Origin: Frankia tisae
Lineage (GTDB): Bacteria > Actinomycetota > Actinomycetes > Frankiales > Frankiaceae
Length of the DNA stretch: 32,427 bases
Reading direction: 5' to 3'
Assembly: GCF_025403405.1 (NCBI RefSeq)
Contig: NZ_JANEZT010000025.1
Span: 1 to 32,427 of the forward strand
Numbering within the stretch: the first letter of the stretch is position 1; the number at the start of each line of letters is the position of its first letter. A program made the translations under genes and the position numbers. The notes below the pieces were generated by a model. That model made no database searches. It was not told the DNA's origin and worked only from the letters and a program-made list of their open reading frames with translations. Of this stretch, positions 1 to 19,169 are shown one piece after another.

Positions 1-1440
<1,440 letters not shown>

Positions 1441-5105: not shown

Positions 5106-5499
5106 TCCCGAGGTCCGGCGGCTCGCGCAGGCGTGCTCCGACGTCACGCTGGCGACGCTCATGCCGGACGGCCAGCCGCACACGAGCATCGTCTGGGCCC
5201 ACGCCGACGACGACTACCTGCTGATCGGCACCAGCACGACGCTGCAGAAGTACCGCAACGTCGTCGCCGACCCGCGCGTCTCGGTGCTGATCGTCGACCC
5301 CGACGACGCGCGCCGCTACGTCGAGGTGCGTGGCCACGTGGCGGCTCTCGACACCGGCGCGCCGGCGCTCGAACTCGTGCAGACGACGTTCGGCAAGTGG
5401 ACCGGCGGCCCGCCACCGCCCGTCGTGCTCGCCGGTGCGGGCCAACGTGTCCGGCTGCGGATCGCCGCCGAGCGGATCCGCTGGAAGCTACCGCGATGA
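5098..5499 (+). CDS. F420/FMN-binding PPOX-class oxidoreductase
   Basis: This 133-residue protein has the split beta-barrel pyridoxamine-phosphate-oxidase-like fold. It begins LDPEVRRLAQACSDVTLATLMPDGQPHTSIVWAHADDD and continues with KYRNVVADPRVSVLIVDPDDARRYVEVRGHV. This is the pattern of the actinobacterial F420-dependent PPOX group, whose members reduce small organic molecules or bind the deazaflavin. ATG 5098 lies inside the end of the LLM gene (8-base overlap) and its stop overlaps the next start (ATGA), so the three are translationally coupled. In this operon it could supply reduced flavin or process the monooxygenase product. FMN rather than F420 as cofactor remains possible. Confidence 0.82.
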   Translation: MLDPEVRRLAQACSDVTLATLMPDGQPHTSIVWAHADDDYLLIGTSTTLQKYRNVVADPRVSVLIVDPDDARRYVEVRGHVAALDTGAPALELVQTTFGKWTGGPPPPVVLAGAGQRVRLRIAAERIRWKLPR

Positions 5500-6371
5500 G
5501 CGCTCGCCTCGAGGTGGAGCCCGTCGTCACGCCGGAGTGGGTCGCGCAGCGGCTCGACAGCGTCGTCGTGGCGGACGTGCGCTGGTATCTCGATGGCCGC
5601 CCCGGCCACGACGCCTACCTGCGCGAGCACGTGGCCGGCGCGGTCTGGGTCGACCTCGACGTCGACCTGTCCGATCCGCCGAGCGTGGCCGGCGGGCGTC
5701 ATCCACTGCCCACACCGGAGACGTTCGCCGAGCGGCTGGGGGCGCTGGGCCTCGCCGACGACGACATCGTCGTCGGCTACGACGACCAGGGCGGCGGGTT
5801 CGCCGCGCGGCTGGTCTGGCTGCTGCGGTCCATCGGACAGCCGGCGGCGCTGCTCGACGGTGGGCTGGCCGGTTGGACCGGGGCTCGCGAGTCGGGGCCG
5901 ATCACCCGCACGCCGGTTGTGCGCCGCCCGCGGCCATGGCCCGCGCGCCTGGTGCGCAGCGCCGACGAGGTCCAGGCAGCGGCGGCCGGCGGCGGCGGCG
6001 CGGCCGTCGTGCTCGATGCGCGTGCCTCGGGACGCTACTCGGGTGCCGACGTCCTGCCAGGCGAGTCGCGCCTCGGCCACGTGCCGGGTGCCCGCAGCGC
6101 GCCGTGGGCGGACAACCTGCGCCGCGACGGCTCGTTTCGGTCGGCTGCCGAGCTGCGGGAACGCTTCGCGGCGCTGGGCGCCGTCGATGCCGACGAGGTG
6201 ATCGTCTACTGCGGCTCGGGCGTCACCGCCTGCCACGACCTGCTGGCACTCGAGCGCGCCGGCCTGCCCGCCGGAGCGCTGTACCCCGGCTCGTGGTCGG
6301 CGTGGTCAGCCGAGGAGAGCCGGCCGGTCGCCATCGGCGAGGAGCCCCACGAGACGCCGACCAGCGCCTGA
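5496..6371 (+). CDS. sseA: 3-mercaptopyruvate/thiosulfate sulfurtransferase
   Basis: A two-domain rhodanese of 291 residues. Domain 1 (about 1-130) has GHDAYLREHVAGAVWVDLD and an inactive loop with Asp-Gln (YDDQGGG, residues 95-101) where the catalytic Cys would be. Domain 2 has the active loop CGSGVTA with Cys at about 239. CG[ST]G at this loop is the 3-mercaptopyruvate type, while thiosulfate rhodaneses usually carry CRKG or similar. The enzyme moves sulfane sulfur to thiols or cyanide in the cytoplasm. ATG 5496 overlaps the previous stop by 4 bases. A larger upstream extension in the same frame would run antiparallel to the PPOX coding phase and is not credible. Confidence 0.9.
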   Translation: MSARLEVEPVVTPEWVAQRLDSVVVADVRWYLDGRPGHDAYLREHVAGAVWVDLDVDLSDPPSVAGGRHPLPTPETFAERLGALGLADDDIVVGYDDQGGGFAARLVWLLRSIGQPAALLDGGLAGWTGARESGPITRTPVVRRPRPWPARLVRSADEVQAAAAGGGGAAVVLDARASGRYSGADVLPGESRLGHVPGARSAPWADNLRRDGSFRSAAELRERFAALGAVDADEVIVYCGSGVTACHDLLALERAGLPAGALYPGSWSAWSAEESRPVAIGEEPHETPTSA

Positions 6372-6443: not shown

Positions 6444-7001
6444 ATGTGTGCGACGACCGAGCCGGCCACCAGCGACCCGCGGGTGGCCAGCGACCCGCGG
6501 GTGGCCGGTGAGCCGCGGGTGGCCGGTGAGCCGCGGGTGGCCGGTGAGCCGCGGGTGGCCGGTGAGCCACGGCTCGCCGACGCGCTCGTCCAGTTCGCGC
6601 ACCTGATCGATCATCTGTTTGCCGATGTCAGCCGCGGTCTGGGCCTGACCCCCCAGCAGGTCCAACTGCTGTGCGAGCTCATCCGGGGGCCGGTCGGCAT
6701 GACCGAGTTGACCGGGATTCTGCATGTCGAGCGCTCGAGCCTGACCGGGCTGGTGGACCGAGTCGAGCATCGAGGCCTCGTGAAGCGCGTCCGCCACGCC
6801 ACCGATCGACGCTTCATCGAGGTCGCGTTGACCGCCAAGGGCATGGAGCTGGCGATGAAGTCCTACCACAGCGTCACCGCGAAGGTCGCGGAACTCACCA
6901 GCGGTATGGCGCCGGCCAACACGACACTTTTGGCGGCGATCGTCGCGGGCATCCTGGCCGACAACGGCATGCCGCTCATCTCCGCGTCCGAGGTCGGCTA
7001 G
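6444..7001 (+). CDS. MarR-family transcriptional regulator with repeat-expanded N-terminus
   Basis: This 185-residue protein carries a MarR winged-helix fold from about residue 47. Recognition region: GMTELTGILHVERSSLTGLVDRVEHRGLVKRVRHATDRR, with the wing D-R-R conserved. Dimerisation helices lie at each end. Residues 10-45 are six copies of a six-residue motif (DPRVAS or EPRVAG) produced by an 18-bp tandem repeat, outside the conserved fold. The protein is clearly paralogous to the MarR at 13760, and the two flank the ABC importer operon. MarR proteins are dimeric ligand- or redox-sensing repressors. A Cys in QLLCELI is shared in position with the paralog (ELVCAVV). Targets may be its own promoter and the adjacent sulfur operons. 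Confidence 0.85.
   Translation: MCATTEPATSDPRVASDPRVAGEPRVAGEPRVAGEPRVAGEPRLADALVQFAHLIDHLFADVSRGLGLTPQQVQLLCELIRGPVGMTELTGILHVERSSLTGLVDRVEHRGLVKRVRHATDRRFIEVALTAKGMELAMKSYHSVTAKVAELTSGMAPANTTLLAAIVAGILADNGMPLISASEVG
6471..6578 (+). repeat. Six tandem 18-bp units inside the MarR gene
   Basis: Units start at 6471, 6489, 6507, 6525, 6543 and 6561. The first two are identical (begin AGCGACCCGCGG), the next three are identical (begin GGTGAGCCGCGG), and the last is diverged. The period is a multiple of three, so copy-number change keeps the frame. It encodes the proline-containing N-terminal repeat. Confidence 0.95.
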
Positions 7002-7709: not shown

Positions 7710-7814
7710 GTGCGATCATTGAACACTTACCTGCGTCGGCACGTCGACTTCGCGCTGGTGAAGAGCGCGCTGTGTACCGCGTCGACGTCCTCGCTCTGTG
7801 GGCTCGACGGCTAG
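7710..7814 (+). CDS. Cysteine-containing leader peptide of the importer operon
   Basis: A 34-residue peptide starting at GTG 7710 (or TTG 7719) with a G-rich stretch just upstream as ribosome-binding site. Its centre, LRRHVDFALVKSALC, matches the actinobacterial 'putative leader peptide' type (R-R-H-[IV]-D-L-x4-S-A-L-C) found upstream of sulfur-uptake and assimilation genes. A second Cys codon lies near the end (SSLCGLDG). I infer that ribosome stalling at Cys codons reports cysteine supply to the operon downstream. The gap to the first transporter gene is 354 bases and is filled with repeats and a strong hairpin. No lanthipeptide or other modifying enzyme is nearby, so a secreted peptide product is unlikely. 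Confidence 0.6.
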   Translation: MRSLNTYLRRHVDFALVKSALCTASTSSLCGLDG

Positions 7815-8082: not shown

Positions 8083-8184
8083 GTGTGTCCGCGCACTGAA
8101 TCAGTGGGTGTGTTCGGCCTGCCGGGAATCGCGGCGCGCCGACTGAGGCCGATGCATTCGGCTCGGCTATGCGTCGTTACGTAG
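8083..8184 (+). CDS. Upstream ORF overlapping the first permease start
   Basis: GTG 8083 is preceded by a good AGGAGA site (8074-8079) and opens a 33-codon frame that runs past the permease ATG at 8169 and ends at TAG 8182-8184. The permease start itself has no ribosome-binding site. Ribosomes finishing this small ORF would be delivered to that start, so translational coupling is likely. The peptide has Cys at position 2 and near its end (SARLCVVT), which could tie it to cysteine supply. It does not carry the R-x2-[VI]-D-[LF] motif of the other leaders. Alternative: the frame is open by chance and the permease uses a leader-dependent start. Confidence 0.4.
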   Translation: MCPRTESVGVFGLPGIAARRLRPMHSARLCVVT

Positions 8185-9140
8185 CGGGGCGCCTGGCCCA
8201 GGCCGTCGGCGTGCTGTGGGCCGCCTACACGGTGTCGTTCTTCGTGCTCTACTACCTGCCGGGCGACCCGGTTGCGGCGATGTTCGGCGGGGGGGCGGAC
8301 GCGGCCACGATCAATCCCGCCCAGCTTGACGAGCTTCGCCACCGGTACGGCTTCGACAAGCCGGTTATCGTTCAGTACTTCGACTATCTCGGCAAGGCGC
8401 TCAGGGGCGACTTCGGGAACTCGGTGTCGTCGGGACGTTCGGTCTCGTCAACGTTGGGCCACGCGTTGCCGCAGACCTTCGCGCTCGCCGGGGCGGCCCT
8501 GCTGCTGTCGGTGGTGCTCGGCGGCGCTCTGGCAATCTCAGCCAGCTACACGCGGCGGCGCTGGTTGCGGCAGGCGCTGTTGTCCCTGCCGTCGCTGGGC
8601 GCGTCGCTGCCGGGCTTCTGGGTCGGGTTGATGCTCATCGAGCTGTTCTCCTTCCGTGTCGAGTGGTTCCCGGCCTTCGGGCACGGCGGGCTGCGTGGGC
8701 TGGTGCTGCCGGCCGTGACGCTGGCTGTCCCGGGCACGGCGCTGCTGGCGCAGATTCTCGCCAAGGGCCTGGTGGCGGCGCTCGACGAGCCCTACGTGCA
8801 GACGGCGCAGTCGAAGGGGGCCAGCCGGTGGCGTATTCACCTGCGCCACACCCTGCGCAACGCCTCACTGCCCGCGCTGACGGTGCTGGGGCTGATCGGC
8901 GGGCAGTTACTGGCCAACGCGGTGGTCGTGGAGACTGTCTTCGCCCGCGAGGGTCTGGGCCGGATCACCGCCTCCGCGGTGTCCACCCAGGACATTCCCC
9001 TTGTGCAGGGCGTGGTCGTGTTCGGAGCACTGGTGTTCGTCGTGCTCAACCTGATCATCGATCTGGCCTACCCGCTGCTTGATCCGCGCATCATCGCCAG
9101 CCCCCGTGCAGGCAGGGCGATCGTGGGGGCCGGAGCATGA
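8169..9140 (+). CDS. ABC importer permease, DppB/OppB family
   Basis: A 323-residue inner-membrane protein with about six transmembrane helices. The family's N-terminal pattern RYVAGRLAQAVGVLWAAYTVSFFVLYYLPGDP is visible in segments (RRYVAGRLAQ, YYLPGDPV). The ATPase-coupling EAA loop is at about 205-230 (EPYVQTAQSKGASRWRI). The protein ends in YPLLDPRI, as DppB homologues do. It forms the pore with the next gene, which starts inside its stop codon (ATGA). The family imports dipeptides, oligopeptides, nickel chelates and glutathione. Leader type and neighbours favour a sulfur-containing compound such as glutathione or a modified cysteine, but the sequence does not prove it. Confidence 0.9.
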   Translation: MRRYVAGRLAQAVGVLWAAYTVSFFVLYYLPGDPVAAMFGGGADAATINPAQLDELRHRYGFDKPVIVQYFDYLGKALRGDFGNSVSSGRSVSSTLGHALPQTFALAGAALLLSVVLGGALAISASYTRRRWLRQALLSLPSLGASLPGFWVGLMLIELFSFRVEWFPAFGHGGLRGLVLPAVTLAVPGTALLAQILAKGLVAALDEPYVQTAQSKGASRWRIHLRHTLRNASLPALTVLGLIGGQLLANAVVVETVFAREGLGRITASAVSTQDIPLVQGVVVFGALVFVVLNLIIDLAYPLLDPRIIASPRAGRAIVGAGA

Positions 9141-10104
9141 TCAACGAGCTGGCCGGGCAGACCGAGGTGACCGTCGACCGCGACGCCGACGCCGACGCCG
9201 ACGCCCAGACCCACGCCTACTCCCACGCCGATCCCGTCTCCCACACCGATCCCGTCTCCGGCCAGCCGCGCCGTGCCGCCCGGGTGAACCACGCGGCCCG
9301 GTTCTTCGTACGCCGTCCGGGCCTGGTTTTGTCGATCATTCTGGTGCTCCTGGTGGTCGTGGCCGCATTCTGGCCCGGTGGGCTCAGCGCGCGGGACCCG
9401 CTGCGAGGCCATCCAGCCAACAGCTTCCGTGGGCCGAGCCGCTCGCACTGGTTCGGTACCGACGCGCTGGGGCGCGACGAGTACTCCCGCGTCGTGCACG
9501 GGGCGCAGCTGTCGCTGAAGGCGACCCTCATCGCCGTCGCGGTCGCCTTCGTCGTCGGTGCCCTGATCGGGCTCGTGGCCGGCTGCGCGGGGCGATGGAT
9601 CGAGAGCCTGCTGATGCGGTTCGTGGACGTGCTGCTCTCGATTCCCTCGCTGTTGTTGTCCCTGGCGCTGGTCACCGCACTGGGCTACGGGACGGTGAAG
9701 GTCGCGGTCGCGGTGGGCATCGCGAGTGTCGCCGCCTTCGCCCGGGTCATGCGGGCCGAGGTGCTCCGGGTGAGGCACGCGACCTACGTGGAGGCCTCGC
9801 GCTCGTGTGGCGGTCGCTGGCTGTTCGTGCTGTGGCGGCACGTGCTGCCCAATGCGATCGGCCCGGTTCTGGTGCTGGCCACGATCGATTTCGGGGCCGC
9901 GATCCTGGCCGTGTCCTCGCTGAGCTATCTCGGCTATGGGGCGCCGCCGCCGGCGCCCGAATGGGGGACGTTGGTGGCCACCGGGCGGAACTACCTCTCC
10001 AACGCCTGGTGGTTGACCGCGCTGCCGGGACTGACGATCGTGGCGACGGTCCTGGCGACCAACCGTATTTCCCGCGCACTGGACGGCGAATGGGTGCGGC
10101 AGCG

Positions 10105-10108
<4 letters not shown>
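9137..10108 (+). CDS. ABC importer permease, DppC/OppC family
   Basis: A 323-residue second permease. From about residue 55 it shows the DppC pattern: a first helix (PGLVLSIILVLLVVVAAFWP), the periplasmic HWFGTDALGRDEYSRVVHGAQ block, further helices, and the coupling loop EASRSCGGRWLFVLWRHVLP. It ends in RALDGEWVRQR. The first 50 residues are an unusual hydrophilic extension with Asp-Ala repeats from a GACGCC run (about 9181-9204) and a duplicated H-x-DPVS motif. ATG 9137 overlaps the DppB stop, and the stop overlaps GTG of the ATPase gene. The extension lies before the first helix, so it is cytoplasmic and probably disordered. Confidence 0.9.
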
Positions 10109-11820
<1,712 letters not shown>

Positions 11821-11906
11821 CGCGAGACGTACGCGGCCGGGGAGGCGGCTGCGGACTCACCTCCATCTTCCACCTTCAACCTGAACTTTTCCTATCAGGA
11901 GATTCT

Positions 11907-13550
11907 GTGCCCGCACTGAGTTCACCGCGTCGGGGACCGCGCCGCCTCGGCCTGCTGGCGTTGTCCGCCGCGCTTCTCGCCGTTCCGTTGAGCGCCTGCG
12001 GCAGCGACGACTCCGGGTCATCCGGTGGCGCCGCGGCGGCCCCGTCCAAGGCCGCCGGCCAGCCGGGCGGCACTGTGTCGGTCGCCGTGCCCACCGATAT
12101 CGGCTGCATCGACCCGCAGCAGGTCCGTTCGGACACGTTGTACTCGCTGCGCCAGACCGTCGACTCGCTGACCGACCAGAATCCCGCCACCGGGCAGATC
12201 GTGCCCTGGCTTGCGACGAGCTGGGACGTCAGCTCGGACGCCACGACGTTCACGTTCCACCTTCGCGACGGCGCCACCTTCAGCGACGGAACCCCCGTCG
12301 ACGCGAAGGTGGTGAAGGACAACTTCGACACCATCACGACGAAACTGCGGGGACTGTCCAGTCTCGGTGTGACCTACCTGACCAACTACGCCGGAACGAC
12401 CGTGGTCGACAGCTTGACCGCGCAGGTGAAGTTCAGCAAGCCCAACGCCGCCTTCCTGCAGGCGTCGTCGACTCCTTCGCTCGGACTGATCGCCGAGGCC
12501 AGCCTCGCGAAGGAGCCGGCCCTGCGCTGCTCGGGGGGCGTCGTGGGCTCGGGTCCGTTCACGCTGTCCAGCTGGCGACCAAACCAGTCGATCACCCTGG
12601 CCAAGCGTAAGGGTTACAACTGGGGGTCGTCTCTGTGGACGAAGCCCGGCGAGGCGTACCTGGACAAGGTGGTCTTCCAGATCGTGCCCGAGACCGGGGC
12701 GCGGACCGGCGCCCTGCAGTCGGACCAGGTCCAGCTGATCACCAGTGTGACCCGCGCGGACGAGGCGGCGCTGAAGGGCTCCAACAAGACGCTGAAGACC
12801 GTCACTCTTGCGGGCACGAACACCCTGTGGATCAACCACGCCACCCCACTGCTGAAGGACGTGAAGATTCGGCAGGCCCTCCAGTTCGGAATCAACCGGA
12901 AGGAGATCACCAGCCTGTTCCCGTCCGGAACCACGGCGGCCACCAGCATCCTGTCGCCGACGTCGCCGGGCTACGCCGACAACTCCGAGTTCGTCACCTA
13001 CGACCCGGCCAAGGCCAAGTCCATTCTCGAAGCCGACGGCTGGAAGGTCGGCGCGGACGGCATCCGGACCAGGGACGGCGTCCCCCTCGAGATCGAGATC
13101 GGCAATCCGGGCGGCCTCAGCAGCGTGGACCCGGAACTTGAACTCCTTCAGCAGCAGGTGAAGGACGTCGGCATCCGCATCAAGATCAGGGAGATCCCGG
13201 TCTCCGAGGCGACCTCCGTCCAGCAGTCGGGCTCCTACGACATCCTGATCGCCAGCGCGCAGCGGCCTGACCCGGACTTCCTGCGCACCAACTTCTCCAC
13301 CAAACTGCTCAACTCCTACAAGCTCGCCCCGTCCTCGCTGGACACGCTGCTCGACCAGCAGGCCGCCACGACGGACCTGGCCAAGCGCAAGGAGCTGGCC
13401 GGTCAGGCGCAACGCATACTGTCGGAGAACGCCCACGCCATTCCGATCGTGAACTACGTGGCCGAGTTCGCGCACTCACCCAAGCTCAACGGTGTGGCAT
13501 TCAACCCGCAGGGCTACCCGGGCTTCCACGACGCGTGGCTCAGCCGGTGA
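11907..13550 (+). CDS. Peptide-type ABC solute-binding lipoprotein (SBP family 5)
   Basis: GTG 11907 is preceded by AGGAG at 11897-11901. The 547-residue protein has an Arg-rich start, a hydrophobic stretch and the lipobox LSAC with the lipidated Cys at about 31, followed by a Ser/Gly linker. The mature part shows family-5 hallmarks: LATSWDVSSDATTFTFHLRDGATFSDGTPVDA (about 95-130), FTLSSWRPNQSITLAKR and VKIRQALQFGINRKEI. It captures the substrate outside the membrane for the permease-ATPase complex encoded just upstream. Family 5 binds peptides, glutathione, nickel chelates and other ligands. Nothing visible fixes the ligand. An upstream in-frame TTG near 11817 lacks a site and would mask the signal peptide. 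Confidence 0.92.
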   Translation: MPALSSPRRGPRRLGLLALSAALLAVPLSACGSDDSGSSGGAAAAPSKAAGQPGGTVSVAVPTDIGCIDPQQVRSDTLYSLRQTVDSLTDQNPATGQIVPWLATSWDVSSDATTFTFHLRDGATFSDGTPVDAKVVKDNFDTITTKLRGLSSLGVTYLTNYAGTTVVDSLTAQVKFSKPNAAFLQASSTPSLGLIAEASLAKEPALRCSGGVVGSGPFTLSSWRPNQSITLAKRKGYNWGSSLWTKPGEAYLDKVVFQIVPETGARTGALQSDQVQLITSVTRADEAALKGSNKTLKTVTLAGTNTLWINHATPLLKDVKIRQALQFGINRKEITSLFPSGTTAATSILSPTSPGYADNSEFVTYDPAKAKSILEADGWKVGADGIRTRDGVPLEIEIGNPGGLSSVDPELELLQQQVKDVGIRIKIREIPVSEATSVQQSGSYDILIASAQRPDPDFLRTNFSTKLLNSYKLAPSSLDTLLDQQAATTDLAKRKELAGQAQRILSENAHAIPIVNYVAEFAHSPKLNGVAFNPQGYPGFHDAWLSR

Positions 13551-13759: not shown

Positions 13760-14218
13760 ATGACAGCAAGTCCGGCCGGTACCGGGAGCCCCGCGTCCGC
13801 CGAGGACGCGGGGCTCGCCGAGGCGCTGGTCGAGCTGTCGCATCACGTTCTGCACGTGTTCGCTGACGCCGGTCGCGACCACCGGCTCAGTCAGCAGCAG
13901 GTCGAGCTGGTCTGCGCGGTCGTCGTCCGGGAGTCGGTCAGCATGACCGAGCTCGGCCGGCTGCTGCATGTCGAGAAGTCGAACCTGAGCAACCTGGTCG
14001 ACCGGCTCGAACAACGGGCCCTGGTCACCCGCACGAGGGACCCCGACGATCGGCGCGCCATCCAGGTCAGCCTCACCGACGAGGGCACGGCCGTCGCGAT
14101 GAAGACCTACTACGACGTGACCGCGCGGGTGCGGCGGCTGCTCGAGCGGCTCCCCCAGGACGACCAGCGCAACCTCGCGGCGGTCGTGCGCAGGATCGTT
14201 CGGGACGAGCCGGCCTGA
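13760..14218 (+). CDS. MarR-family transcriptional regulator (paralog of the one at 6444)
   Basis: A 152-residue MarR protein with the winged helix at about 55-105: SMTELGRLLHVEKSNLSNLVDRLE, then TRTRDPDDRRAIQVSLTDEG. It aligns along its whole length with the first MarR (shared LAEALV/LADALV, SQQQVELVC/TPQQVQLLC, L-HVE-S-L--LVDR-E, DRR, T-KG/T-EG, AMKTYY/AMKSYH) but lacks the repeat expansion. A -10-like TAGGAT is at 13709-13714, and CCAGA/TCTGG arms at 13681-13699 may be an operator. It sits between the importer operon and the second sulfur leader, so it may regulate either or both. MarR proteins usually repress their neighbours until a ligand or oxidant is sensed. Confidence 0.87.
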   Translation: MTASPAGTGSPASAEDAGLAEALVELSHHVLHVFADAGRDHRLSQQQVELVCAVVVRESVSMTELGRLLHVEKSNLSNLVDRLEQRALVTRTRDPDDRRAIQVSLTDEGTAVAMKTYYDVTARVRRLLERLPQDDQRNLAAVVRRIVRDEPA

Positions 14219-14325: not shown

Positions 14326-14354
14326 TGGACATAGTCGACTTGCCCGGCTAGGTT
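14326..14354 (+). promoter_or_regulatory. Promoter of the second leader
   Basis: TGGACA (14326-14331), a 17-base spacer and TAGGTT (14349-14354). The start near 14361 would lie about 170 bases before the leader-peptide ATG, almost the same distance as in the importer leader. The region 14219-14885 holds no other gene besides the leader peptide. Confidence 0.5.
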
Positions 14355-14529
14355 TGGCCCGGTCAGCCTGCCAAAAATGGGTCGGCGAGACGGTTGGCCG
14401 GACCGCGTTGTCCGGCCTCGGCCGGACCGGCCGTCCGTCGGCGCGGTGGGGTCGTGTCGCCACAAGCGGCCGGCGCGCGGGCAGGCGCAGGCTCGCCTCG
14501 GGGTCGGGCCCGAGTTGAGGAGGGGTGCG

Positions 14530-14676
14530 ATGTCGCCGGCGCCCAGCCGACACGATCGGCCCTCTGCGAACGCTCGGTGCCGCCCGCCGCACAGCCGGTT
14601 CGCCAGGCGGCGGTTCACCCGGCGGCTCGTGATCGATCTGCGCCGTTCATCCAGCAGCCTCTGTCCCGGTCCCTGA
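14530..14676 (+). CDS. Second cysteine-containing leader peptide
   Basis: ATG 14530 follows a strong GAGGAGGGG site. The 48-residue basic peptide ends with RRLVIDLRRSSSSLCPGP. Aligned with the first leader it keeps R-x2-[VI]-D-[LF]-x4-S-[AS]-L-C exactly, with Leu in place of the usual His. The stop is 207 bases before the LLM gene at 14886. The gap contains a CCGCAGACCG tandem repeat near 14693-14717 and a small TCCCG/CGGGA hairpin (14769-14783) that could compete with other pairings. I infer a cysteine-responsive control peptide for the operon downstream. The peptide's length beyond the motif is unusual, and an internal start is possible. Confidence 0.55.
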   Translation: MSPAPSRHDRPSANARCRPPHSRFARRRFTRRLVIDLRRSSSSLCPGP

Positions 14677-14885
14677 CCGGTTCACCGCAGGCCGCCGCAG
14701 ACCGCCGCAGACCGCGTTGCGCGCTCCCGCTCGTGCCGCGGCCATCGCGCCGTCTCGGACCGCCGCATCCCGCCCGCCGGGACGGCCAGGTTCACGCCGC
14801 ACCGCCCCAGGCCGGCGGGCCGGTTCGGGAGCCGACGTCCCCGTGGACGCACCCAACCCCACCCGCCTCGACCGAAAGGCCGGAC

Positions 14886-16103
14886 ATGACAGACCTCCCG
14901 TTGGCCGTCCTCGATCTCGTGCCGGTCAGCGCCGGTGACACCCCGAACGACGCGCTGCGCAACACCGTCGACCTGGCCCGGCGGGCGGAGGAGTTCGGTT
15001 ACCGCCGGTACTGGTTCGCCGAGCACCACCTCAACCCCGGTCTGCTCGGCGTGTCCCCCGCGGTGGCGATCGCGTTGGTGGCCGGGGCGACGTCGACGAT
15101 CCGGCTCGGCTCGGCCGGCGTGCAGAGCGGGCATCGCACCCCGCTGTCCGTCGTCGAGGAGTTCGGCCTGATCGACGCGCTGCACCCCGGCCGCCTGGAC
15201 CTCGGCATCGGCCGCTCACCGGGCCGGCCGGCACCGACGAACGGCGAAGCCCGCAACGGCGCACCCACAGCCGGCGCGCCCACAGCCGGGACGGCGCCCG
15301 CCTCGGGCCCGGCACTCGTCTCGGCCGCGGCGGCCGCCTACCAGGCGAGTCTCGGCGGGGCCGATCACAGCACCGATCAGCGGGCCGCCAACGGCCTGTT
15401 GATCCCTCGCCGGTTCGACTTCAGCACGCTACTCGGCTCGCCCCGGCTGGGGGTGACCCTGTCGCTGCTGCAGCAGCCGGGCGCCTACACCCCGGAGTAC
15501 GCCGACCAGGTCGACGACGTCCTCGCCCTGCTGCGCGACACCTACCACACCGCGGACGGCCAGGCGCGGGCCGGGGCGGCGCTTGAGGTGTGGATCCTCG
15601 GGGCGTCCGGGGGGTCGAGCGCGTCCGTCGCGGGCTCGCGGGGGCTGCGCTTCGCCGCCTCCTACCATCACAGCCCCAGCACGGTCCTCGACGCGGTCGA
15701 CGGGTACCGGGCGGCGTTCGCACCGTCGGCGGGCCTCACCGCGCCCTACGTCTCGGTGTCCGCCGACGTCGTCGTCGGCGAGGACGACGCGAGCGCGGCC
15801 CGACTGGCCGCCGGCTACGGGCTGTGGGTCCGCAGCATCCGCGGCGGCGCTGGAGCGATCCCGTTCCCGGCCCCCGAGGAGGCGGCCGCGCACACGTGGA
15901 GCGACGCCGATCGGGAACTGGTCGCCGACCGCGTCGCCACCCAGCTCGTCGGCTCCCCGTCGACCGTCGCCGACCGGCTCGAACAGCTCGCGGCGGCGAC
16001 CGGCGCCGACGAACTCGCCGTCACCACGATCACCCACCGGCACGCCGACCGGGTGCGATCCTATGAACTGTTGGCCACGGAGTGGGCCCGCCGCCGCGGC
16101 TGA
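14886..16103 (+). CDS. LLM-class flavin-dependent oxidoreductase, MsnO8/YtmO-like group
   Basis: The 405-residue protein opens with PLAVLDLVPVSAGDTPNDALRNTVDLARRAEEFGYRRYWFAEHH in pieces typical of the group (LDLVPVSAGDTP, FGYRRYWFAEHH), then STIRLGSAGVQSGHRTPLSVVEEF and LDLGIGRSPG. The Bacillus subtilis monooxygenase YtmO (CmoO), which acts on N-acetylated S-alkylcysteines, belongs to the same branch as far as I recall. An Ala/Pro/Thr-rich insertion (about residues 117-145), including a short duplication, breaks the fold near the active-site loop region. ATG 14886 follows GAAAGG. It heads an operon with MDR, GNAT and M20 genes. Reduced flavin would come from a separate reductase. Confidence 0.88.
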   Translation: MTDLPLAVLDLVPVSAGDTPNDALRNTVDLARRAEEFGYRRYWFAEHHLNPGLLGVSPAVAIALVAGATSTIRLGSAGVQSGHRTPLSVVEEFGLIDALHPGRLDLGIGRSPGRPAPTNGEARNGAPTAGAPTAGTAPASGPALVSAAAAAYQASLGGADHSTDQRAANGLLIPRRFDFSTLLGSPRLGVTLSLLQQPGAYTPEYADQVDDVLALLRDTYHTADGQARAGAALEVWILGASGGSSASVAGSRGLRFAASYHHSPSTVLDAVDGYRAAFAPSAGLTAPYVSVSADVVVGEDDASAARLAAGYGLWVRSIRGGAGAIPFPAPEEAAAHTWSDADRELVADRVATQLVGSPSTVADRLEQLAAATGADELAVTTITHRHADRVRSYELLATEWARRRG

Positions 16104-16164: not shown

Positions 16165-17109
16165 GTGCCCAAGGCATACGTCTATACCGCGAACGGCGGC
16201 CCCGAGGTGGAGGCGTTCACCGATCTACCGGTGCCCGAGCCCGGCCCCGGTCAGCTCGCGATCGCGGTACGCGCGGTCGGCGTCAACCCCGCGGACTGGA
16301 AGCTGCGCAACGGGCTGACGCTGCCCGGCCTGCCCGACCCGGTGTTCCCCGTCGTGCTGGGGCTGGAGGCGGCGGGCGTGGTCACCGCAGTGGGCCCGCA
16401 GGTGTCGGCGTTCGCGGTCGGCGACGAGGTTTTCGGGATCACCGTCGCCGGCGCCTACGCCGAACACGTCCTGCTCGCGGCCGCGCTGGCGACGCACAAG
16501 CCGGCCGCGGTGAGCTTCCGCGCCGCGGCCGCCCTGCCGGTTGCCGCGGCGACCGCCTACGACGGTGTGCACCAGCTCGCGCTGCCGGCGGGCGCGACCC
16601 TGCTGATCACCGGGGTCGGCGGTGGGGTAGGCGTGGCCGCCGCGCAGATCGCCCGCCACGCCGGGCTCACCGTCGTCGGTACGGCCAGCGCGGGGAAGAA
16701 GGACCTCGCCGAGTCGCTGGGGGTCGTCTGGGTCGAGCCGGGCCCGGGCGTCGTCGAGCGGGTCCGCGCGGTCGCGCCGCAGGGCGTCGACGCGGTCTAC
16801 GATCTCGTCGGCGGTGCGGCGCTCGAGGAGATCGCCGGGGTGCTCACCCCGGCGGCCGCCGCCGGCGCCGGCGCCGCGCCGCGGCTGATCACGGCCGCGG
16901 ACACGGCGACGGTCACCCGCCTCGGCGGCGTGGCCGTGCAGCGGGCTCGCAACGCGGACGTGCTCGACGCCGTCGCCGGCCTCGCCGCGGCCGGGGTGCT
17001 GGACCCCCACGTCAGCGACGTCTACCCGCTGGACCGGGCGGACGCGGCCCTGCGGGCGGTGGAGACCGGCCACGCCCGCGGAAAGATCGTGATAGAAGTC
17101 GCCGGGTGA
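16165..17109 (+). CDS. Zinc-less MDR oxidoreductase (quinone-reductase-like)
   Basis: A 314-residue medium-chain dehydrogenase/reductase. N-terminal GroES-like domain: VRAVGVNPADWKLRNG and PVVLGLEAAGVVTAVG. The nucleotide-binding Rossmann loop is ITGVGGGVGVAAAQIARHAGL (about 146-166). The catalytic-zinc Cys/His and structural-zinc Cys cluster of alcohol dehydrogenases are absent, which points to the NADPH:quinone/enone reductase branch. GTG 16165 is preceded by AAGGGA. The next gene starts inside its stop (GTGA). Its role in this operon is unknown. It could reduce an aldehyde, enone or quinone product, or feed electrons to the flavin enzyme. Confidence 0.88.
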   Translation: MPKAYVYTANGGPEVEAFTDLPVPEPGPGQLAIAVRAVGVNPADWKLRNGLTLPGLPDPVFPVVLGLEAAGVVTAVGPQVSAFAVGDEVFGITVAGAYAEHVLLAAALATHKPAAVSFRAAAALPVAAATAYDGVHQLALPAGATLLITGVGGGVGVAAAQIARHAGLTVVGTASAGKKDLAESLGVVWVEPGPGVVERVRAVAPQGVDAVYDLVGGAALEEIAGVLTPAAAAGAGAAPRLITAADTATVTRLGGVAVQRARNADVLDAVAGLAAAGVLDPHVSDVYPLDRADAALRAVETGHARGKIVIEVAG

Positions 17110-17852
17110 CCATACGGCACGTGCTGGACAATCCCGCCCGTTCGGCCCTGCTCGGCCCGCATGCACACCTCGCCGAGCGGCGCGGGGAGGTGCTGCGCTA
17201 CCCGGCGGACGTGTGCCCGTTCGTCGCCCTGCCCGACGAGCCGGACGAGAGCACCTGGCGGGACGCGGCGGCGCTGCTCGGTCCGGGCGCCCTGGTGCCG
17301 TTCACCGGCGTCGACGCGGCCGTGCCGCCCGGTTGGGAGGAGGTCGGTTTCGGCCCGGGGGTCCAGATGATCGACGCCGGGATCGACGCAGCCGGTGACG
17401 ACGGCGCGGTGCGCCTCGGCCCGGCGGACGTCGCGGAGATGCTCGATCTGGTAGCCCGCACGCGCCCCGGCCCGTTCCTGCCCCGCACCATCGCGCTCGG
17501 CACCTACCTCGGCATCCGCCGCGGCGGGGCGCTGGTCGCCATGGCCGGGGAGCGGCTGCACCCGCCGGGCTGGACCGAGATCAGCGCCGTCTGTACCGAT
17601 CCGCAGTACCAGGGGACGGGACTCGCCTCCCGGCTCGTGCGGGCGGTCGCCGCCGGCATCCGCGCCCGTGGCGAGACGCCGTTCCTGCACGCCGCCGCGA
17701 CGAACACGAACGCGATCCACCTCTACGAGACCCTCGGCTTCCGGCTGCGGCGCACGGTGACCTTCCGCGCCGTCCGGATCCCGGGTGCCGTGCCGGGCCA
17801 GCCCACCGGGCCGCTCGCCGCGGAGTCGAGCACGGGCGAACCGGCGCTCTGA
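17106..17852 (+). CDS. GNAT-family N-acetyltransferase
   Basis: A 248-residue protein whose C-terminal half is a GNAT (FR47-like) domain. ISAVCTDPQYQGTGLASRLV carries the acetyl-CoA pyrophosphate loop Q-x-x-G-x-[GA], and the domain closes with HAAATNTNAIHLYETLGFRLRR. The N-terminal half is a less conserved alpha/beta region common in actinomycete homologues. GNAT enzymes acetylate amines, including amino acids. Overlapped 5' with the MDR gene (GTGA) and 3 bases from the M20 gene, it is part of one operon with a deacylase-type M20 enzyme and a monooxygenase. This is the partner set used for acetylation-dependent S-alkylcysteine salvage in Bacillus. The substrate is inferred, not shown. Confidence 0.87.
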   Translation: MTIRHVLDNPARSALLGPHAHLAERRGEVLRYPADVCPFVALPDEPDESTWRDAAALLGPGALVPFTGVDAAVPPGWEEVGFGPGVQMIDAGIDAAGDDGAVRLGPADVAEMLDLVARTRPGPFLPRTIALGTYLGIRRGGALVAMAGERLHPPGWTEISAVCTDPQYQGTGLASRLVRAVAAGIRARGETPFLHAAATNTNAIHLYETLGFRLRRTVTFRAVRIPGAVPGQPTGPLAAESSTGEPAL

Positions 17853-17855
17853 GCG

Positions 17856-19169
17856 GTGGAGACCGGCCAGCAGGTCGCGGCGCGCGAGGCGGTGGCGATG
17901 GCCAGCGACCTCATCGCGTTCGACACCAGTAACCACGGCGACCCGCACGCCGGCACCGAGCGGCCCGCGGCCGAGTACGTGGCCGGCCGGCTGGCCGACG
18001 TCGGCTACGACGTCACCTACCTGGAGTCCGGGGCACCCGGGCGCGGCAACGTCGTCGCCCGGCTGGCCGGCGCCGACCCGTCGCGGGGCGCCCTGCTCCT
18101 GCACGGCCACCTCGACGTCGTCCCGGCGCAGGCGGCCGACTGGACGGTCCACCCGTTCTCCGGCGAGGTACGCGACGGCTACGTGTGGGGTCGCGGCGCC
18201 GTTGATATGAAAGGCGCGGTCGCGATCACGCTGGCGGTGGCCCGCCGCCTGCGCCGGGAGGGGATCATCCCACCGCGGGATCTGATCTTCGCGTATGTCG
18301 CCGACGAGGAGGCCGGCGGCTGGTACGGGGCCCGCTGGCTGGTGGACAACCGCCCTGACCTGTTCGAGGGCGCCACGGAGGCGATCGGTGAGGTCGGCGG
18401 CTTCTCCGTCACCCTCGGCGAGGACCTGCGCGCCTACCTCGTCCAGACGGCGGAGAAGGGCAGCCTGTGGCTGCGGCTGACCGCCCGGGGCCGCGGCGGG
18501 CACGGCTCGATGCTGCATGACGACAACCCGATCGCCACGCTGGCGGCGGCCGTCGCCCGCCTCGACGCCCACCGCTTCCCGCTGGTGCTCACCGATCCGG
18601 TCCGGGCGTTGCTCACCGGGATCGCGGACATCACCGGGGTCCCGTTCGACGAGGCCGATCCGCAGGCCGCCGTCGACCGCCTCGGCCCGCTGGCCCGCCT
18701 GGTCGGGGCGGCGCTGCGGGACACGGCGAACGTGACCCTGTTCGACGCCGGCTACCGGTCGAACGTCGTGCCCGCCACGGCCCGCGCCACCGTCGACGGG
18801 CGGTTCCTGCCCGGGCGGGAGGAGGCGTTCGGCCGCGAGCTGGTCGAGGTGCTCGGCCGGCGGGTACGGGCCGAATGGGACACCCTGCCGCCGGTCCGGA
18901 CGACCTTCGACGGCGCCCTGGTGGGCGCGATCCGCGCGGCGGTCGAGGCCGAGGACCCGGGCGCTCGCGTCCTGCCGTATCTGCTGGCCGCCGGTACGGA
19001 CGCGAAGTCCTTCCAGCGGCTGGGGATCCGCCACTTCGGGTTCACCCCGCTGCGCCTGCCGCCGGAGCTGGACTTCAGCGCCCTGTTCCACGGGGTTGAC
19101 GAACGGGTCCCGGTCACGGCCCTGGAGTTCGGCACCCGGGTGCTGCACCGGCTGCTGCGGACCTGCTGA
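17856..19169 (+). CDS. M20-family metallohydrolase (amidohydrolase/peptidase)
   Basis: A 437-residue zinc hydrolase of the M20/M25/M40 group. Metal and catalytic marks: LLHGHLDVVP (H85, D87), WGRGAVDMKG (D117) and VADEEAGG (E151/E152), plus the dimerisation-domain stretch GRGGHGSM (about 207-214) and a C-terminal His in FHGVDE. Members cleave peptides or N-acyl amino acids (aminoacylase, DapE, ArgE, carboxypeptidase). GTG 17856 lies 3 bases after the GNAT stop. In this context removal of an acetyl group from a processed cysteine derivative is attractive. General peptide cleavage of imported dipeptides or glutathione fragments is an equally simple reading. It is closer in style to the aminoacylase-1/CPG2 group than to the hippurate-hydrolase (M20D) group of YxeP/YtnL. 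Confidence 0.9.
   Translation: METGQQVAAREAVAMASDLIAFDTSNHGDPHAGTERPAAEYVAGRLADVGYDVTYLESGAPGRGNVVARLAGADPSRGALLLHGHLDVVPAQAADWTVHPFSGEVRDGYVWGRGAVDMKGAVAITLAVARRLRREGIIPPRDLIFAYVADEEAGGWYGARWLVDNRPDLFEGATEAIGEVGGFSVTLGEDLRAYLVQTAEKGSLWLRLTARGRGGHGSMLHDDNPIATLAAAVARLDAHRFPLVLTDPVRALLTGIADITGVPFDEADPQAAVDRLGPLARLVGAALRDTANVTLFDAGYRSNVVPATARATVDGRFLPGREEAFGRELVEVLGRRVRAEWDTLPPVRTTFDGALVGAIRAAVEAEDPGARVLPYLLAAGTDAKSFQRLGIRHFGFTPLRLPPELDFSALFHGVDERVPVTALEFGTRVLHRLLRTC

Follow-up and report, generated by a model that had tools for sequence, protein, structure and literature searches.

A conserved single-cysteine leader peptide precedes a predicted sulfur-salvage operon in Frankia and may belong to a wider cysteine-responsive regulon

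The window analysed here is a stretch of 32,427 nucleotides from Frankia tisae (contig NZ_JANEZT010000025.1). Between a MarR gene and an LLM monooxygenase gene it carries a short open reading frame (ORF) that is conserved across Frankia, shows peptide-level selection on its core, ends that core in a Cys codon strongly biased to UGU, and belongs to a kind of leader associated with sulfur genes (Table 1). The ORF would be translated as a leader; when charged tRNA-Cys is scarce, the ribosome would pause at the single UGU ending the conserved core, the pause would raise expression of the LLM-MDR-GNAT-M20 genes, and about 16 leaders of this kind would act in parallel as a ribosome-read cysteine and sulfur regulon. 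As a single explanation of the observations this is highly probable. We infer Cys sensing at UGU because of the motif, the gene content and the mycobacterial precedent. Counted against a cysteine leader are a score below the family cut-off, a single core Cys codon instead of a run, and a variable spacer. With this analysis, a so far uncharacterised sulfur-salvage operon of Frankia and a transporter fall within one predicted cysteine-responsive regulon.

Table 1. Features of the window, with the evidence for each.
Feature	Position	Strand	Evidence or remark
O-acetylhomoserine/O-acetylserine sulfhydrylase	142-1440		same contig
Mercaptopyruvate-sulfurtransferase-like rhodanese	5133-6371		same contig
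First leader (VRSLNTYLRRHVDFALVKSALC...), same motif with UGU	7710-7814	+	conserved in two relatives (L158 and L159)
Peptide-type ABC transporter behind first leader: DppB/DppC permeases, fused ATPases, SBP	8169-13550	+	homology
MarR regulator gene	13760-14218		
Candidate promoter of leader-operon transcript, TGGACA-N17-TAGGTT	14326-14354	+	read by eye; block kept in relatives
Shine-Dalgarno (SD) GAGGAGG of leader ORF	14517-14523	+	sequence; SD and ATG in same place in 10/10 orthologs
Leader peptide ORF, 48 aa	14530-14676	+	ORF translation MSPAPSRHDRPSANARCRPPHSRFARRRFTRRLVIDLRRSSSSLCPGP; NF042934 17.9 bits; 10 orthologs
Leader N-terminal extension	14530-14610	+	start and SD kept, residues unconstrained
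Leader core (R)RRFTRRLVIDLRRSSSSLC, under peptide-level selection	14611-14664	+	codon-position differences, 10 orthologs; NF042934 match coordinates
Motif end with UGU Cys codon, presumed sensing codon	14659-14664	+	TGT in orthologs and other leaders
Spacer from leader to LLM gene, candidate Rho-loading region	14677-14885	+	47% C, 32% G; C-rich, G-poor
LLM flavin monooxygenase, MsnO8 family (TIGR03558)	14886-16103	+	homology
MDR/quinone-oxidoreductase-like zinc-type dehydrogenase	16165-17109	+	homology; start codon judged from sequence
GNAT acetyltransferase (FR47-like)	17106-17852	+	homology
M20 family amidohydrolase/deacylase (PRK07906 subfamily)	17856-19169	+	homology

An earlier note on this DNA had described the leader, and most of its description holds. 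The ORF lies exactly where it was placed and its translation contains the R-x-x-[VI]-D-L...L-C core; the strong ribosome-binding site is the GAGGAGG directly 5' of it. The promoter put about 170 nt upstream corresponds to the TGGACA-N17-TAGGTT block, which is conserved in six Frankia loci and more weakly in two others; a strict scanner built on the E. coli consensus did not call it. The distance to the first enzyme gene, given as about 200 nt, measures 209 nt from the leader stop to the LLM ATG. The N-terminal extension is real, but "about 25" residues was too few, as there are 31 before RRL and 28 to 42 across orthologs. The window leader has one Cys in the core and one non-conserved Cys in the extension.

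The upstream DNA of orthologous LLM genes, a comparison that the note had proposed, was readable directly upstream at 10 Frankia loci; the contig of G010 ends 183 nt upstream and was left out of the count. All 10 carry the core LTRRLxIDLxRSSSxLCP together with the ATG and SD, with SRC for SLC in F. torreyi and G001 and FTRRL in the window and its nearest relative. Among the closest relatives, every one that retains the operon (QA3, torreyi, G001, G004) also has the motif, and frame-breaking substitutions, sought as a refutation, occur in none of the compared sequences. Sequence comparison thus confirms the leader ORF as real and conserved. In an eleventh species, F. canadensis (G002), no leader adjoins the LLM gene; a leader of this subtype, LTRRLPIDLHRSSSCLC, stands at the head of a same-strand run SBP-DppB-DppC-ATPase-LLM that continues to GNAT and M20. 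Because differences among the 10 orthologs concentrate at third codon positions in the core (15, 19 and 55 at positions 1, 2 and 3), selection must act on the core as a peptide. The extension, with 51, 43 and 50 differences over 232 compared codons, gives no sign of such selection, and the spacer, 156 to 494 nt long, is conserved in neither length nor sequence. A motif search of 980 kb of related LLM loci from across the Actinobacteria returned 55 leaders, compared with 0.4 expected from codon-shuffled DNA; 44 lie on the strand of the gene and 11 on the opposite strand. In Frankia sp. AiPa1 (L201, G008:C88) the LTRRLxIDLxRSSSxLC subtype occurs twice, in front of M20 and in front of LLM, with 6.4 kb between the two leaders.

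TGT encodes the Cys at the motif end in 10/10 orthologs and in 15/15 NF042934-like leaders of the genome. Among the 123 distinct actinobacterial leaders from all collected loci, 120 have TGT there; common ancestry makes these counts non-independent, but other synonymous sites vary freely. Background Cys codons in neighbouring long reading frames number 140 TGT and 868 TGC (140/1008, or 14% TGT), and those in the genes of the window 8 TGT and 35 TGC. Where a Cys stands seven codons before the motif Cys, it is encoded by TGC in 15 of 16 cases. Bacterial tRNA-Cys has the anticodon GCA, so UGU is read by wobble and could be the more sensitive codon. The conservation of the core as a peptide and the almost constant use of UGU appear to be the new points of this analysis: descriptions of peptide-core selection and of near-invariant UGU in single-Cys leaders were not found in the literature searched. 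What stands out most is that peptide and UGU codon are constrained together. This could mean that these leaders are cysteine sensors that depend on a conserved nascent peptide as well as on a specific UGU read by G-U wobble, resembling arrest peptides with one hungry codon, where classical attenuators count codon runs, and serving an actinobacterial sulfur regulon that has neither a terminator nor a hairpin sequestering the ribosome-binding site (RBS); this proposal is tentative and rather doubtful as it stands. Core selection and UGU bias make the sensing mechanism directly testable. At position -3 of the motif, Ser is mostly AGC (59 AGC and 11 TCC among 75 Ser in the 123 leaders, above background), perhaps a second constraint at the nucleotide level.

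The window leader matches only one NCBIfam family, NF042934 (cis_reg_atten, 'putative leader peptide'), over residues 28-45, and its 17.9 bits do not reach the curated cut-off of 27 bits. Orthologs in other Frankia score 20.1 to 24.8 bits, also under 27, and the family threshold therefore excludes this subtype; real leaders are lost at the NCBI cut-off. The short ORF ends in the R-x-x-[VI]-D-L-x-R-x-S-S-x-L-C core and lies 5' of a same-strand (sulfur) operon, a position conserved in relatives. Like the NF042934 leaders, which are common in Streptomyces and Frankia, it has a single terminal Cys encoded by UGU, a short tail to the stop and a sulfur operon downstream. Its subtype differs in having V, S, P or Q at position -11, where most leaders have H, in carrying the 28-42-residue extension, and in scoring below the cut-off. 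Searches with the NCBIfam leader names found no literature match.

Mycobacterial-type poly-Cys leaders with a LTKRRAVDLCRVAG core are found by the same NF042934 model. Such leaders are cysteine-responsive attenuators according to Canestrari et al. 2020 (Mol Microbiol 114:93), as cited in PMC9031893 and PMC13236596, the latter describing the published mycobacterial work as translation attenuation. The Frankia leader resembles these leaderless upstream ORFs (uORFs; NF042936, Ms4527A) in its [KR]RRxVDLCR-type core, in Cys codons near the stop and in the sulfur genes downstream. However, it has one core Cys and no contiguous Cys run, it is led by a conserved SD behind a promoter-like block that would give a 5' UTR of about 170 nt, and it has no conserved pairing to the downstream SD. 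Seliverstov et al. 2005 (PMC1262725) predicted cysteine leaders in Mycobacterium, Propionibacterium and Bifidobacterium and suggested Rho. Those are likewise short ORFs with Cys codons near the stop and no terminator, but they have runs of Cys codons, and Frankia is absent from that paper. The window leader thus appears to belong to a known kind of cysteine leader, as a variant with a single Cys, an SD-led start, a long extension and a sub-cut-off score.

No intrinsic terminator, the mark of a classical transcription attenuator, was found between the leader and the LLM gene, and the 5' UTR and the spacer fold no better than shuffled sequences (z 0.49 and -0.31). In the window no Rfam riboswitch or leader was found at gathering level; the only match was a chance minus-strand hit to a microRNA within the leader region. 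The favoured way of transmitting a stall is protection of a C-rich Rho-loading region: Rho would load on the spacer and end transcription, and a ribosome stalled at UGU would block the loading. We give this nearly even chances of being right. In 44 of 50 leaders C exceeds G just 3' of the ORF, compared with 22 of 50 for the DNA upstream of it; the freedom of the spacer in length and sequence and the lack of an intrinsic terminator point the same way, as does the earlier proposal of Rho for mycobacterial cys leaders. The spacer is C-rich and G-poor and is therefore compatible with a Rho-dependent scheme, but base composition alone is weak evidence, as C-rich, G-poor leaders can have other causes, and the account of the mycobacterial work in PMC13236596 also speaks against Rho.

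Translation attenuation of the mycobacterial type, in which the UGU region would pair with the LLM RBS or start and a stalled ribosome would free the RBS, seems unlikely. In both the minimum free energy (MFE) and the centroid fold of the window, the leader UCUGUC pairs with GACAGA at the LLM start, and for the window and its nearest relative the duplex z is -1.8; the mycobacterial loci L129, L143 and L145 of the same scan show pairing of the poly-Cys stretch with the SD. However, the helix is not kept in distant orthologs (z -0.61 to +1.63), complementarity between the leader core and the spacer or RBS is no greater in 50 leaders than in shuffled sequences (mean z -0.11, -0.09 and -0.36), and the spacer is unconserved. 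Protection of a Rho-loading region is preferred over unmasking of the LLM RBS.

Control by the adjacent MarR regulator, with the leader incidental, would suit the position of the MarR gene, which ends 107 nt before the promoter block, but QA3 and torreyi, which keep both operon and leader, showed no match to this MarR within 6 kb upstream, and we regard this as very unlikely; MarR and the leader may exert joint control. That the leader ORF senses nothing and serves chiefly to increase downstream translation, through coupling or reinitiation, is highly improbable: a general role of leader ORFs in raising downstream translation has been proposed (PMC4833913), but here the gap is 156-494 nt, the peptide core and the UGU are strict, and sulfur genes are associated. 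A functional small protein in place of a regulator would explain peptide-level selection on the core but is scarcely credible, as only about 17 residues are constrained, the extension is free, the same motif precedes many unrelated sulfur genes, and UGU is constrained at the codon level.

The cysteine-leader explanation extends beyond this operon. The earlier note had reported a first leader of the same type in the window, and it proves real: two relatives keep it as LNTYLRRHVDFARVxSSLCP. The QA3 copy scores 18.0 bits against NF042936 and 16.5 bits against NF042934, both below threshold. In the window copy the motif is followed by a second LC (SSLCG), and Leu replaces the Arg that usually follows D-F-A; neither feature occurs in the two relatives. 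From these two leaders the note had concluded that there is a single sulfur-responsive regulon, which is supported but proves much wider than two leaders. Beyond the window leader, 14 NF042934-like leaders of the genome were examined, and the first window leader brings the total to about 16. The genes just 3' of them, named mostly from sub-cut-off matches, include a nitrite/sulfite-reductase family member, an SsuD-like alkanesulfonate monooxygenase, a TauD-like dioxygenase, a DszC/SfnB-like oxidoreductase, a second MsnO8-type LLM, a GsiB-like SBP and a LysR regulator. The regulon reading is strengthened by these leaders, several of them before sulfur genes, and by the joint transporter-LLM-GNAT-M20 operon of F. 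canadensis. By analogy with mycobacteria and from the gene content, the leader-controlled genes would respond to sulfur or cysteine.

The second MsnO8-type LLM gene (L005/L124) has NF042934-like leaders both before and after it (G000:C29:13324-13374 and 14953-15003), the later of which precedes an amidohydrolase/Xaa-Pro-dipeptidase-like gene. The closest paralog of the window leader, LTRRLSIDLRRSSSCLCSP, lies at a contig end (L006, G000:C610:21879-21935). Among the loci of Streptomyces and relatives (L058-L117), most Streptomyces ones have such a leader about 3.75 kb upstream of the LLM gene. This leader is of the H-[VI]-D-L type, often SRPHIDLQRVAGALC, and a few of these loci have an additional downstream leader of the type LTRRRHVDLARVSSxxC.

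The operon itself fits a role in sulfur salvage. QA3, AiPs1 and torreyi share the gene order LLM-MDR-GNAT-M20 with a PNPOx-like gene after it. In Bacillus, clusters of an acetyltransferase, an FMN monooxygenase and an M20 deacetylase free cysteine from S-modified cysteines (PMC12757645), and the Frankia operon likewise brings together an acetyltransferase, a flavin monooxygenase and an M20 deacetylase. The likeness to the Bacillus subtilis scm, ytn and yha systems is one of functional gene set; the Frankia M20 is of the PRK07906 type and an MDR gene is added. By this analogy, the operon probably frees cysteine from S-modified cysteines via acetylation, flavin-dependent C-S cleavage and deacetylation. 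Elsewhere in the window, positions 6444-7001 encode a MarR-like protein with an N-terminal tandem repeat of PRVAGE/PRVASD units. A contig labelled Candidatus Melainabacteria (CAJCJE010000066.1, L045) encodes an LLM 69% identical to the Frankia LLM and is possibly a misassigned actinobacterial contig.
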